DNA of 64,000 nt. Source: Microvenator marinus. Its GTDB lineage: Bacteria; Myxococcota_A; Bradymonadia; Bradymonadales; Bradymonadaceae. The stretch covers positions 1,588,001 to 1,652,000 of the forward strand of contig NZ_CP042467.1 of NCBI RefSeq assembly GCF_007993755.1, given 5' to 3'. Below the pieces are notes generated by a model. It was not told where the DNA came from. It ran no database searches and was given only the letters and a program-made list of their open reading frames with translations. Made by a program: the position numbers and the translations under genes. Shown in pieces: positions 18,224 through 23,313 of the stretch. Every line of letters begins with the position of its first letter. Positions within the stretch are counted from its first letter, which is position 1.

Positions 18224-18301
18224 GTTTTTGAACTCGGTAAGACATTGCTGGGCCCCAACTTTGATATGCGGTATGATCCAGACGCGCAATCTGGAGTTGA
18301 T

Positions 18302-19477
18302 ATGAATTTGGGAGCCATTCTAAAAGCTATACATGAGGGTGAGTCAGATTCGGTTGAATTCAAGCGAGACGCCGACCTGAAGAAGATTGGTAAGGCTATC
18401 TCCGCGTTTGCCAACAGTGATGGAGGTATCTTAATACTAGGCGTCAGCGATGATGGCAAAGTTGTAGGAATTCAAGACAATTCAGAGTCGCTAACAGAGC
18501 GAATCACTTCGTTTCTTCAGAATGGCCTAAGCGCACCTGTCCAAGCCAGACTAGGGCGCGAAGTTCTTCCGGAAGGCCGTATTCATTGGATCGAGGTGCC
18601 ACGTCAGCGTGGGTTTGAGCCACTTCGCTACGCAGGAAACGTTTACGTGCGTCGCGCACGTTCCAGCGTCGAGCCAGGGCCCTCGGAGTTGGCAGAACTC
18701 TACAACATGTTTGGCTACATTGTGACCGAAGAACGAACGGTTGCGGGAGTTGGATTGGACGAACTCGACCTGCCCTCCTTTCAGAGATACCTGAAGCGAC
18801 TTGGTCTAGACCTCGAAGCTGAGCCTCAGATTGCCATTGAAAATGACCTGATCTCCCGAGGTGTACTAGCCGAACTGGGCGAATCCGCATGTGCGACAAT
18901 CTATGGCCTGCTGGCATTTGGAAAGTCTCCCCAAGCGTATTCTCAAACCCAGAATTTCTTCGTTCAGTGCGTAAGTTATGCGGGTAAGGACCGAGCAGCT
19001 GAAGTAATCGAGGTGTTGGACGCGAAAGGCCAGCTTGATGAACAAGTTAGGAAAACCCTCGGCTGGCTCACAGCTCAACCGCGACGCGAGGTGTATCGCG
19101 GAATCGAGCGCATCGACATCCCTCTCCTGCCGCCCAAAGCGGCGCGCGAAGTCGTCGTCAATGCAGTCGCACACCGCGACTATGCTATTATCGGCTCAAA
19201 GATCCTGGTCGAGCGATTCTCGGACCGAGTTGAGTTCACGAGCCCTGGCCGGCTGACCAACGGGTTGACACCTGATTCTGTGCGACGCGGAGGAAATCCT
19301 CGAGCCCGAAACCAATCGATCACAAATTTCCTTCTCGCGTCGGGATTGATGGAGCAACGTGGACGCGGCTGGCCCATCATTGAGGCGGCTCTTCGCGAGC
19401 AAGGACTAGCAGCACCGATATTGGAAGAGGATCGCGAGGCCCGGTGGGTTCGAGTCACCATGAGCACAGTCGTCTAA
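18302..19477 (+). CDS. AlbA_2/Schlafen-type ATP-binding putative transcriptional regulator
   Basis: A protein of 391 residues. I start at the ATG of 18302, preceded by GGAG, rather than the upstream reading at 18245. The N-terminal AlbA_2 (Schlafen-like) domain is clear: ESDSVEFKRD then ISAFANSDGGILILGVSDDG. The C-terminal part has the ATP-binding regulator pattern NAVAHRDYAI, FTSPGRLTNGLTPDSVRRGG and MEQRGRGWPIIEAALREQG, seen in the family annotated as RNA-binding domain/ATP-dependent DNA helicase-like regulators. These proteins are common in accessory and defence-rich regions, but cellular roles are mostly unknown. It may form a loose unit with the next two genes on the same strand. Confidence 0.85.
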   Translation: MNLGAILKAIHEGESDSVEFKRDADLKKIGKAISAFANSDGGILILGVSDDGKVVGIQDNSESLTERITSFLQNGLSAPVQARLGREVLPEGRIHWIEVPRQRGFEPLRYAGNVYVRRARSSVEPGPSELAELYNMFGYIVTEERTVAGVGLDELDLPSFQRYLKRLGLDLEAEPQIAIENDLISRGVLAELGESACATIYGLLAFGKSPQAYSQTQNFFVQCVSYAGKDRAAEVIEVLDAKGQLDEQVRKTLGWLTAQPRREVYRGIERIDIPLLPPKAAREVVVNAVAHRDYAIIGSKILVERFSDRVEFTSPGRLTNGLTPDSVRRGGNPRARNQSITNFLLASGLMEQRGRGWPIIEAALREQGLAAPILEEDREARWVRVTMSTVV

Positions 19478-19531: not shown

Positions 19532-20416
19532 ATGTGGATTAGCATTGAACACAGAATCGAGGGTGGGTTCTTGCTCTCGTGTTCGGACCATTTTCCGAGG
19601 ACCGGAGCTCTAAGTTTTGAGTTCTATCGAACCCGCCTCTCCGGAGAGTGGCTAAGGTTTCACCGCGTATTCACCCGTGGAAAGCTCGCTACGTTGATTC
19701 GACTCGATGACGGATGTGATTGGCTATATGTGGGTTTCGACACCTTCACATCGCCCCTGAGCCCATTAAAGGCGAGGCACGTGGAGTGGTGTATTTTGAA
19801 CCCAGAGACATGGCTGAAGGAACAACTGCTCGCAGCTGGTGGAATTGGACCAGGCGTGTTTTCACTCACTCGCGTCAGTGGTGGTGAGGCGAGGTGTCTG
19901 GCCAAGGAGATTGCGCTCACTCAGGAGCCTTGGTTTGTTGCAGAGGCAGCGAGCTTGATTCCTCTCAGACAGTCGTCGGATCCGGAGTACGGGAGAGTGA
20001 AATGGTACAGAAAACTAGCTCGGTCCGGCAATCTGCCGCCCGTGTTTTTGTTTCGGCATGATGGTCTTGATAGCAGACTTGTTTTTGATGGGCATGATCG
20101 GCTGCTGGCCGCCCGACTAGAAGGCGTCTTTCCACACATGTGGGAAATTTCAAGAGTGCGGGTTGAAGACCGTTCATATCCGGAGGAAGAATGCACCTCG
20201 ATCGAAGCAAACCTCGCATACGAACTTGAAAAGGAATGTCGCGGAAAAAGACGACACGAACAAGTGGAGGCCATCAACCAGCGGTTGTTGGAGTTGCATT
20301 CGCGACAAGCGCTGATTCATCGCCCGACGGTGCGCGTCATCCCGGGTGGGCTCACTACATGGTGTGACGATATAGATCGGCTCCAACTTCCGAACGTTTT
20401 TCTGCGAGACGAATAA
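19532..20416 (+). CDS. Uncharacterised protein with ParB-like-fold motif
   Basis: A soluble protein of 294 residues, function unknown. Its centre has PPVFLFRHDG and LVFDGHDRLLAARLEGV (about residues 170-200), which resembles the DGHHRLxAA core of ParB/sulfiredoxin-fold proteins; His and Arg are kept. No helix-turn-helix domain of true ParB is visible. The N-terminal half is beta-rich and unfamiliar. The gene starts 54 bases after the AlbA_2-type gene and ends 82 bases before the STAND-type NTPase, all on the plus strand. Resemblance to ParB rests on this short motif only. Confidence 0.65.
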   Translation: MWISIEHRIEGGFLLSCSDHFPRTGALSFEFYRTRLSGEWLRFHRVFTRGKLATLIRLDDGCDWLYVGFDTFTSPLSPLKARHVEWCILNPETWLKEQLLAAGGIGPGVFSLTRVSGGEARCLAKEIALTQEPWFVAEAASLIPLRQSSDPEYGRVKWYRKLARSGNLPPVFLFRHDGLDSRLVFDGHDRLLAARLEGVFPHMWEISRVRVEDRSYPEEECTSIEANLAYELEKECRGKRRHEQVEAINQRLLELHSRQALIHRPTVRVIPGGLTTWCDDIDRLQLPNVFLRDE

Positions 20417-20498
20417 ACCACACCTGCTCCCAAGGCGATTGTCGAGATTTCCAGACTATTCTTGATGCGAGCGTCCCGAAGCCTTACAACGACCGCCT

Positions 20499-21449
20499 AT
20501 GAAGGTCATCGGACGCCAAAACGAGCTCGAGCTCATCTCTCAACACCTTAAACCCTGTGAAGTGTTAGTTTTGAGCGGGCCGTCGGGCATTGGGAAGACG
20601 ACGACCGCACGTCGTTTTCTCGAGTTGCAGACTGAGCCGGTCCTCGACGTCGACTGCTTCGGAATGGATTCAACGGACATCGCGGTAGCCCTGACCCATG
20701 TACTCGATGCCGGCACTACTCAACTTCGCCCCATTGACCTCTGGATACGAGCTTCCGAAGTGTTAGCCCATCGGGGGATTCGATTTCTTCTTTTGGACGA
20801 CGTACGTTGCGAGCATGACGACTTCCGAAACCTCTTCACCCGCTGGAACGGCTCGATCCTCGTGACGTCGATACTTGCGACGGGCAATAAGGTCATTCCC
20901 CTCACGCCGCTCAACGATCACGCGTTTGAGGTCTTTGAGAGCGCCGCCCTTAGCGAAGATCTGAGCTTTAGGGTCGATGATCTTGAGTCGATCAAAGAGA
21001 TATTGGCCGAGATTCAGGGACATCCCTTAGGCCTCGCGCTCGCTGGACGATTTGCGGCGATCTCATCGCCCAAGAATGTGCTCAACGCTCTCCAACGCAA
21101 CTCGCTCACCGACCACTCGCGACCAGAGCGTCATCGAAGCACCTGGAACGCGGCGGAGTTCACGTGGAAGCAATTGACGGTTGAACAGAAGTCTCTCGTC
21201 TACGCGATGGCTCTGTTTGAGCGTCCATTGAGACTCAGCGCTATCCCTGTGACCGTTGACCAACCGAACGGGTGGTTGAGGATCTACGCGCGCTGGTCCG
21301 AGCGGGGATTGTGGCAAGAGGCGAGTTTCAGAGGCCGCTACAACTCTTCTGCGAATTCGCAAAGGAAGTTTTCCCGACCGAGTTCCGTGACATCGCAGTG
21401 CTCATCCGGGACAACATCGTCGCTGAGGCCTTTCGCGCGGCTCAGATGA
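20499..21449 (+). CDS. STAND-type P-loop NTPase, N-terminal part of a frameshifted gene
   Basis: The first part of what looks like one gene of about 770 codons. It opens MKVIGRQNELE, has Walker A GPSGIGKTT near residue 32 and a Walker B-like IRFLLLDDV near residue 95, then the GHPLGLAL segment typical of AAA/STAND (NB-ARC-like) ATPases and a winged-helix-like region ending near residue 257. After VDQPNG (about 21269) the text turns unlike protein (RYNSSANSQRKFSRPSS) to a stop at 21449. The reading continues well in the -1 frame from 21272. A lost G in the GGG at 21270-21272 is the simplest cause. Sequencing error, true inactivation and programmed slippage cannot be told apart here. Confidence 0.75.
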   Translation: MKVIGRQNELELISQHLKPCEVLVLSGPSGIGKTTTARRFLELQTEPVLDVDCFGMDSTDIAVALTHVLDAGTTQLRPIDLWIRASEVLAHRGIRFLLLDDVRCEHDDFRNLFTRWNGSILVTSILATGNKVIPLTPLNDHAFEVFESAALSEDLSFRVDDLESIKEILAEIQGHPLGLALAGRFAAISSPKNVLNALQRNSLTDHSRPERHRSTWNAAEFTWKQLTVEQKSLVYAMALFERPLRLSAIPVTVDQPNGWLRIYARWSERGLWQEASFRGRYNSSANSQRKFSRPSSVTSQCSSGTTSSLRPFARLR

Positions 21450-22816
21450 TGCCCCGCGGTCTGCACGATACGCCGGAACTCGAAGAACAACCTTCATTCT
21501 GGCGATTCGTGATTGAGAGCCGAGCCGAAGAGATGGAACCTGAATCCCTGGCCCCAATTCTCTCCGCTTGGCTCCGCTATGTCAGCGTTCGGGACCGAGC
21601 TAGTGGACGTTCGGAAGACTCTCAAATCGCCACATTGCTTGAAAAGACAAACGATTCGGACAATTGGTTGCAGGCGGCACGTGTTCATCTCTTCTTTGAC
21701 TTCAATGCGGCATGTGGATTCTTGGAGCGGGCGGTGCAAACGGCTCAAAGTCCGCAGGAACTTCACGATGCAAAAGTCTTTCAAGCATACAATGCGGTCA
21801 CTGCTCAACCGTCCGAGAGCCTGCGACTCTTTGACGAAGCCTATTGCGCCGATTTTGACTCATCGATTGTCGCGTTTTGGGAAGCCGAGATTTGCATTAT
21901 GGCGCAGGAAGAAGTGCGGGCCAAGAGTGCCTTGAGACGTTTAGACCTGGACCGCTTAAGTCCCAACAACCGTGCCGCATATGAGCACCTATTGGCGGAG
22001 TTGGAGCCCCCGACGCAAGCCGAGAAACGAACCCGGCTAGCACTTGAGGATCCTCTTATTTGTCCCTCGAAGCGGGTCTCTCTACTCCTCGCCAACGCTA
22101 CGATCCTGGCGATTGGACTTAATCGTTTCGACGATGCTTTTCAGAGGCTGGAAGAGTGCGGCAAGCTAGCCAAACAACTTAAGTCACCACGCGTAGTTTC
22201 ATGGGTTCAAACGAGAACCGCACTCGCCCTGCTGCATTCTGGCGAGTTCACGAAAGCCAGAAAGCTCGCGAGTGATATACAAGGCGATTATGGCCCCTCA
22301 AGTCCTGTGATGAAGATGATCGTCGCGACGGCGTTTTGCCAAGAGGGGCAGCTTCAACGAGCTCGAGAGAACTGGAGAGTACTCAAAGTAGAGTACCCGA
22401 AGCCACACTTCCACTTTTCGACGCTTTGGCACTTTCTTGACTTCGTCATCGAGGGAGATCGAAACACAAGTGACCCTCGACTAGACGATGTGTTTGAGGC
22501 CCTCTCAATCGTCAACTCACCCGGAGGCACGAACATTCAAGAGGTGATCGCGGCGTGGCCGTCTATACAGAAGGTCATTCAGTACGACTCGAACGATGTC
22601 GGATTCAGACAGGCTCGTCTATTCATCGACCAAAAAGTCTCTGGAGCCGCGAGCCGAATCGCCCGGCTTCAAGCGTCCAATGCCGACATCGCTGTGCTGA
22701 ACGACTTCCAGGCACGCCGGCATCGCTCCCCCACATGTCCACTGGGCAAGACAGGAGGCTACCGTCGCCACCTGGCCATCGGTGAAATCGGTGGACTGGC
22801 AGAACTCAGTCTCTAG
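21272..22816 (+). CDS. Helical-repeat (TPR-like) C-terminal part of the frameshifted STAND NTPase
   Basis: The continuation of the NTPase gene in the -1 frame, 514 codons from a GTG that is probably not a real start. It begins VVEDLRALVRAGIVARGEF, which fits directly after VDQPNG of the upstream part. The rest is helical with degenerate TPR-like pairs (for example RASGRSEDSQ..., FDDAFQRLEECGKLAKQL and QEGQLQRARENWRVL). In known STAND proteins such repeats sense a ligand and control the NTPase. The last 198 bases overlap the convergent lipoprotein gene, and the final 30 or so residues look unlike the rest, so the original end may have been lost. Confidence 0.7.
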   Translation: MVEDLRALVRAGIVARGEFQRPLQLFCEFAKEVFPTEFRDIAVLIRDNIVAEAFRAAQMMPRGLHDTPELEEQPSFWRFVIESRAEEMEPESLAPILSAWLRYVSVRDRASGRSEDSQIATLLEKTNDSDNWLQAARVHLFFDFNAACGFLERAVQTAQSPQELHDAKVFQAYNAVTAQPSESLRLFDEAYCADFDSSIVAFWEAEICIMAQEEVRAKSALRRLDLDRLSPNNRAAYEHLLAELEPPTQAEKRTRLALEDPLICPSKRVSLLLANATILAIGLNRFDDAFQRLEECGKLAKQLKSPRVVSWVQTRTALALLHSGEFTKARKLASDIQGDYGPSSPVMKMIVATAFCQEGQLQRARENWRVLKVEYPKPHFHFSTLWHFLDFVIEGDRNTSDPRLDDVFEALSIVNSPGGTNIQEVIAAWPSIQKVIQYDSNDVGFRQARLFIDQKVSGAASRIARLQASNADIAVLNDFQARRHRSPTCPLGKTGGYRRHLAIGEIGGLAELSL

Positions 22817-23047
22817 ATAGTCCCGCTCATCCGCTGTGGCCTGGCCACACCCCTCGAGTCTAACGAGTTCAGAAACACACTCAGCCCGCACGTCCCTCGG
22901 CGTTGGTGTCACGGGAGAGTCGGGCCCGGGTTGTACAGGCGTCGGATTATTGGACCCAGATCCTTTGGGGTTCGCGTTGTCACCACATCCGAATGTCAAC
23001 AACACAGAAACCATCAGTCCAGTCTTCATCACTTTCACTACATTCAT
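22619..23047 (-). CDS. Small Cys-rich lipoprotein
   Basis: A lipoprotein of 142 residues. The ATG at 23047 is preceded by a strong GGAGG; a TTG two codons earlier is not favoured. The signal ends in LLTFGCG, followed by a Pro/Asn/Gly linker and a compact domain with several Cys (RAECVSELVRLEGCGQ, EFCQST, ASCLAQWTCGG and PACLEVV) likely held by disulfides. From about residue 115 the text overlaps the 3' end of the helical-repeat gene on the other strand and is less protein-like, so the original stop may have been lost. Function unknown. Confidence 0.7.
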   Translation of the reverse strand: MNVVKVMKTGLMVSVLLTFGCGDNANPKGSGSNNPTPVQPGPDSPVTPTPRDVRAECVSELVRLEGCGQATADERDYLETEFCQSTDFTDGQVATVASCLAQWTCGGAMPACLEVVQHSDVGIGRLKPGDSARGSRDFLVDE

Positions 23048-23229
23048 TTTCAACCTCCTGGCGTGGCGAGCAGAAGTGCCCGCTCTGGTTGCGAGGAAGT
23101 TGCCGAAGTGAGCCGCCGAAGTCTTCTTAATCGTTTCTTAAATCTACCACCGTTTCTTTAGTCTCACGCGCCAACAACCACCTGTCGGAAATTCTGAATC
23201 CGATTGCTCGTTCTCGAATCTCAGAGAAA

Positions 23230-23243
23230 TGAATACTCATTCA
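23230..23243. promoter_or_regulatory. Candidate TetR/FadR-like operator upstream of fadN
   Basis: TGAAT-ACTC-ATTCA is a perfect inverted repeat 71 bases before the fadN ATG. The half-site resembles the TGAATGA/TCATTCA half-sites of TetR-family FadR repressors of fatty-acid oxidation in Bacillus, with shorter spacing. A stem-loop CCTCAG-CGTGG-CTGAGG (23253-23269) follows in the presumed leader. No convincing -35/-10 pair was found, and no regulator gene is nearby. Confidence 0.4.
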
Positions 23244-23313
23244 CTCTTCCATCCTCAGCGTGGCTGAGGTAGGGATTCACGAGTTCTTTTTTAACCCAAA
23301 ACATGGAAACAGC

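Follow-up and report, generated by a model that had tools for sequence, protein, structure and literature searches.

A Split STAND Regulator Gene in Microvenator marinus Is Probably a Young Pseudogene

The DNA analyzed here (hereafter, the window) is a stretch of 64,000 nucleotides of the bacterium Microvenator marinus (class Bradymonadia), positions 1,588,001 to 1,652,000 of contig NZ_CP042467.1 in assembly GCF_007993755.1; the source genome consists of one contig of 5,847,748 bp. A reading frame starting at 20499 is open until the stop codon at 21447–21449 (316 aa). The −1 frame has no stop between 21260 and its end at 22816, its first start codon being the GTG at 21272. The two open frames share 187 nt. 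The parts of the locus are collected in Table 1. Upstream, there is an intact gene (18245–19477, + strand) with AlbA_2 and HATPase_c_4 (RecG C-terminal-like) domains, whose padloc match to pAgo probably reflects the AlbA-like part alone. A 294-aa ORF (19532–20416, + strand) with no Pfam or NCBIfam match is situated between this gene and the broken STAND gene.

Table 1. Parts of the locus and the marker domain of its relatives (positions refer to the window unless a locus is named)
Feature	Positions	Strand	Basis
NTPase part (P-loop, NB-ARC-like end), first frame	20499..21271	+	AAA_22 match; match to relative L002 (2e-13)
Interval of reading-frame change, net −1	21260..21305	+	−1 frame opens at 21260; change point at 21272
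First ORF past the frame change: 59 out-of-frame residues, then stop	21272..21449	+	Coding scores
Helical-repeat (TPR-like) part, second frame	21272..22714	+	Match to L002 residues 299–797 (2e-22)
33 codons and stop without homology, where the C-terminal winged-helix-like domain is missing	22715..22816	+	No match to relative or domain profile
Convergent lipoprotein-like ORF, end antisense to the STAND gene	22619..23047	−	Start signals; weak relatives
C-terminal winged-helix-like domain	L067:6450-6827; also L013, L065, L066		STAND-TPR family marker

The first ORF matches AAA_22 above the cut-off (7e-08; 33.3 vs. 27 bits), as well as NB-ARC (2.1e-04) and nSTAND3, both below their cut-offs. It also matches STAND-like relatives. 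A P-loop NTPase core with NB-ARC/STAND similarity is thus present. A sequence search of solved structures with this ORF retrieved other P-loop ATPases alone, at 0.05 or worse. In the second frame, TPR families were recognized weakly (best 0.0033, under the cut-off), and no family model matched the winged helix which the earlier note had placed between the NTPase and the repeats. Neither half had a match in the defence-system library, and among the papers listed by searches of the open-licence literature, none dealt with this gene and none joined Bradymonadia with STAND.

The frame break is directly visible in the coding statistics. The coding model was a 3-periodic Markov model of order 4. Its training set comprised 277 ORFs (368 kb) taken from the window and from 20 stretches of 20 kb distributed over the same genome; ORFs touching 20400–23300 were excluded. 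It places the frame change at 21272 (2-nat range, 21260–21305), the support for the switch amounting to 185 nats vs. the first frame throughout and 130 nats vs. the second frame throughout. Between 21272 and 21449, the coding score is negative in the first frame; in the −1 frame, it is positive from 21339 onward. Hence, the switch near 21269–21272 described in the earlier note is confirmed both by the open frames and by the coding model. The altered base lies somewhere within an interval of about 45 nt.

For comparison, over 464 kb of the genome, the same coding model made 114 switches between frames of one strand in the absence of a stop. Most of them (94) take place at most 30 nt from the stop of the abandoned frame, as in operon overlaps; the switch in the STAND gene, with 178 nt to this stop, is the most extreme of all. 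Eleven other switches reach at least 45 nt, six of which are gene-end artefacts (the second part being 1–5 nt long); the remaining five are flanked by long parts. A Pfam scan of four of these five (L061 was left out) returned different families on the two sides in three cases and was uninformative in one, so one family split across two frames was not found among these four long-sided switches from the 20 sampled stretches. Frame breaks of this size are therefore rare within the 464-kb sample. The break in the STAND gene is not due to chance. Long frame overlaps are also present at L047:8030-9869 (− strand), with O-antigen ligase-like and TPR parts, and at L049:12796-13577 (+ strand), where an ABC ATPase meets the end of an ABC-2 permease; either site may represent overlapping genes or a broken one. 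The O-antigen ligase-like part followed by TPRs, one of the three differing pairs, could belong to a single protein.

With one frame change and no additional stop, the gene looks like one hit by an isolated indel, as a sequencing or assembly error would produce. In this case, the true gene would be an ORF of about 770 codons devoid of the DNA-binding end, which could be a truncated gene or a natural variant operating via protein contacts. This explanation is unlikely, albeit deserving some weight. The shift interval contains no homopolymer of five or more bases and only a GGGG at its very edge, and the pairs checked from the 20 sampled stretches yielded no second split of one family, which also argues against an error. 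Moreover, M. marinus V1718 was sequenced by both Illumina HiSeq and PacBio SMRT (PMC7460792).

Programmed −1 frameshifting or phase variation, giving rise to a full-length and a short product, has room in the 187-nt overlap of the open frames, but the XXXYYYZ heptamers, the type scanned for, do not fit: three are present in the ORF, none of them in phase for a −1 shift. Only one of them resides in the frame overlap, where the longest homopolymers are of four bases. Given also that the output domain is absent in either frame and that the relative described below manages without any shift, such a mechanism is scarcely credible here.

Where the first ORF stops, an ATG in the second frame shares bases with the stop codon, giving ATGA (21446–21449, + strand). 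Such a stop/start overlap is a layout seen in coupled genes; here, it is probably a chance occurrence. It is nevertheless a point in favor of two working genes, i.e., an NTPase fragment and a separate TPR protein made by termination–reinitiation. This arrangement is very unlikely, because the first product would carry a nonsense tail of 59 residues, neither the GTG at 21272 nor the ATG at 21446 is preceded by a clear ribosome-binding site (as judged by eye), no output domain is left, and the relative is one protein.

This relative (L002) is a 907-aa single ORF in genome G011 spanning both halves of the window gene. BLASTP aligns it with the first half at 2e-13 and with the second half, over its residues 299–797, at 2e-22; the NTPase and repeat parts follow in the same order with approximately 25–27% identity. 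Thus, the NTPase and the helical-repeat sensor form one polypeptide in L002, whereas the deposited window sequence encodes them in two different frames. The joining of the frames into a STAND NTPase with a helical-repeat part, proposed in the earlier note, is supported by this single ORF; no homologs stopping around residue 257 turned up, and L002 runs through. The same locus, identical over 4491 bases, was recovered as L067 in the MAG Myxococcales bacterium CSSed162cmA_33 (SKON01000028.1).

Among 95 genomes (own included), the second half matched only two at E ≤ 0.001, namely G011 and the source genome itself, and the searches with each half gave only one relative spanning both. When the relative served as the query against 377 genomes, the source genome and G011 were found again, while G248 matched in the NTPase only. 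One of the contig searches gave no match and the other a single locus identical to L002; plasmids and phages contained no match. Overall, no relative close enough for dN/dS was found in the 95 and 377 genomes, in the 57 genomes of the class searched with a two-row profile, or in the contig searches. The predicted structure of the relative, based on a three-row alignment (mean pLDDT 53.9), is confident in the repeats but not in the NTPase or the C-terminal domain; Foldseek retrieved TPR and other helical-repeat proteins.

The comparison with the relative exposed a second lesion overlooked in the earlier note: the C-terminal winged-helix-like domain is missing. Past residue 797, L002 continues for about 105 residues comprising a conserved domain common to other STAND proteins, so the initial view of the joined pieces as a "normal" protein of about 770 residues is not supported. 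A profile of this domain found no match in any of the six frames of the 64-kb window (best E 1.5). The alignment to L002 ends near nucleotide 22714, and the last 33 codons (22715–22813) match neither the relative nor the domain profile; hence, the gene-like part ends near 22714 and not, as given in the earlier note, at 22816. In the coding model, the last 96 nt score below about 90% of 199 genes, which is low without being extreme, and the optimum for the end point spans a wide range (22695–22816), so the coding statistics by themselves do not establish the truncation.

The same 33 codons lie antisense to the end of the convergent lipoprotein-like ORF. What we take to be the start of this ORF is an ATG behind AGGAGG, a good ribosome-binding site, with a lipobox-like start. 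Its relatives are represented by two weak matches (0.005 and 0.008), too weak to place its natural end. The last 30 or so residues of the ORF are antisense to the STAND gene, and its own end may have been replaced too.

The expectation of a C-terminal output domain in the window gene stems from the architecture of its relatives. Among 13 NTPase-matching frames, the domain is present in all seven relatives whose NTPase match starts by residue 64 and in none of the six whose match starts at residue 115 or later. In a by-hand comparison of 30 other NTPase relatives from the class, the NTPase and the domain were encoded in one frame in 21 cases but not in the other nine; a control on these nine showed that the domain is absent in all of them (best E 0.53, in any frame) and that the NTPase match starts no earlier than residue 176 in each. 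As L015 is counted in both the six and the nine, the combined figures for 21 distinct relatives are 7/7 early-starting and 0/14 late-starting frames, including L073, which runs off its contig so that its end is not visible. In other words, the domain is found in the NTPase-first relatives and is absent where a long N-terminal part precedes the NTPase, and each protein of the family appears to bear one output end, either N- or C-terminal. In the window copy, the NTPase match starts at residue 2–3, i.e., the NTPase begins at once, and the output domain is therefore expected at the C terminus; the copy possesses neither a long N-terminal part nor the C-terminal domain. The simplest account would be a deletion or rearrangement near 22714 which removed the 3' end. 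The sequencing-error explanation accounts for the frameshift but leaves this missing end unexplained.

The domain profile was built from ten C-terminal ends of STAND proteins. It matches 16 of 24 fetched loci, ten of which had been used for building it, the other six (L007, L014, L017, L018, L019, and L022) being independent; all 16 matches reach within 20 residues of the frame end. In Pfam searches, Trans_reg_C was detected weakly in two of eight domain members (best 0.0055). When the profile was compared with solved structures, two response regulators were retrieved at 0.061 and 0.38, ranking below a designed protein (0.038). We therefore refer to the domain as "winged-helix-like", a putative DNA-binding domain assigned from sequence. 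The own genome harbors four copies, in open frames of 569, 872, 893, and 904 aa, and two of these paralogs match TPR_MalT just below or below the cut-off. No NTPase family was found in paralog L065 at 0.01, which counts against a uniform family, and the 569-aa copy (L066) gave no phmmer match to the window NTPase. Across the class, the domain occurs in at least 31 of 57 genomes, and several contain 5–14 copies among the candidates scored, the best 78 candidates having been scored in some large genomes.

A similar architecture is known from the STAND activators. MalT of E. coli is composed of an NTPase, a TPR sensor, and a C-terminal DNA-binding domain, the latter being a LuxR-type HTH. In activators of this type, including MalT and AfsR, contacts of the NTPase with the sensor presumably maintain the inactive state, and the inducer and nucleotide act as the switch. 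AfsR of Streptomyces is a large SARP combining an OmpR-type winged-helix output with NOD and TPR parts, which inhibit the DNA-binding domain until ATP binds (PMC10936776). The relatives of the window gene share with MalT the order of NTPase, TPR sensor, and (putative) C-terminal output domain, but they end in a winged-helix-like domain instead of the LuxR-type HTH; the window copy differs further in lacking the end domain and in its broken frame. In AfsR, the DNA-binding domain is N-terminal, whereas the putative one of the relatives is C-terminal, and the window copy would have lost its own. Unlike the window gene, L002/L067 has one frame and the additional C-terminal residues. By analogy, the intact relatives contain the parts for switching of the MalT/AfsR type, the DNA-binding-like part being C-terminal.

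Taken together, the evidence points to a STAND regulator gene of the MalT/AfsR-like kind that has become a pseudogene recently, with a probability of roughly 0.82. Its intact form would be one polypeptide in which the N-terminal NTPase and the TPR-like sensor are followed by the putative DNA-binding, winged-helix-like domain at the C terminus. If it works like MalT and AfsR, its own NTPase and sensor would keep it off until inducer binding and a change of the nucleotide state turn it on to act at promoters. Relative to L002, the window copy displays two disabling lesions, the frame change and the missing 3' domain. Due to the net −1 change after the NTPase, translation would stop 59 codons on, and the 3' end encoding the output domain would have given way to sequence antisense to the lipoprotein-like ORF. 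The copy should therefore produce only a fragment of the NTPase, ending in nonsense residues, and should have no regulatory output. Read-through of both frames would not restore an output end.

Against decay speaks the fact that neither part contains a further stop and that the coding signal is strong in both, which means that the decay is recent or that some constraint is left. In a highly improbable scenario, the locus would still make two proteins, the NTPase fragment and, by reinitiation at the ATGA overlap, a TPR fragment lacking the DNA-binding end, and these would serve as a natural decoy of the family by titrating what the intact wHTH-bearing paralogs bind, whether inducers or partners. 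From the three options offered by the earlier note, inactivation fits best, a slippage-type switch is disfavored, and a sequencing error is less likely given the combination of PacBio and Illumina data. Most likely, the gene is recently dead and does not represent a new type of genetic switch.

Overall, the split likely reflects the decay of one copy of a regulator whose family is widespread among these predatory bacteria at the class level. The more useful by-product of the analysis is the C-terminal domain, which is weakly recognized by Pfam and marks a STAND-TPR regulator family present in at least 31 of the 57 genomes of the class.
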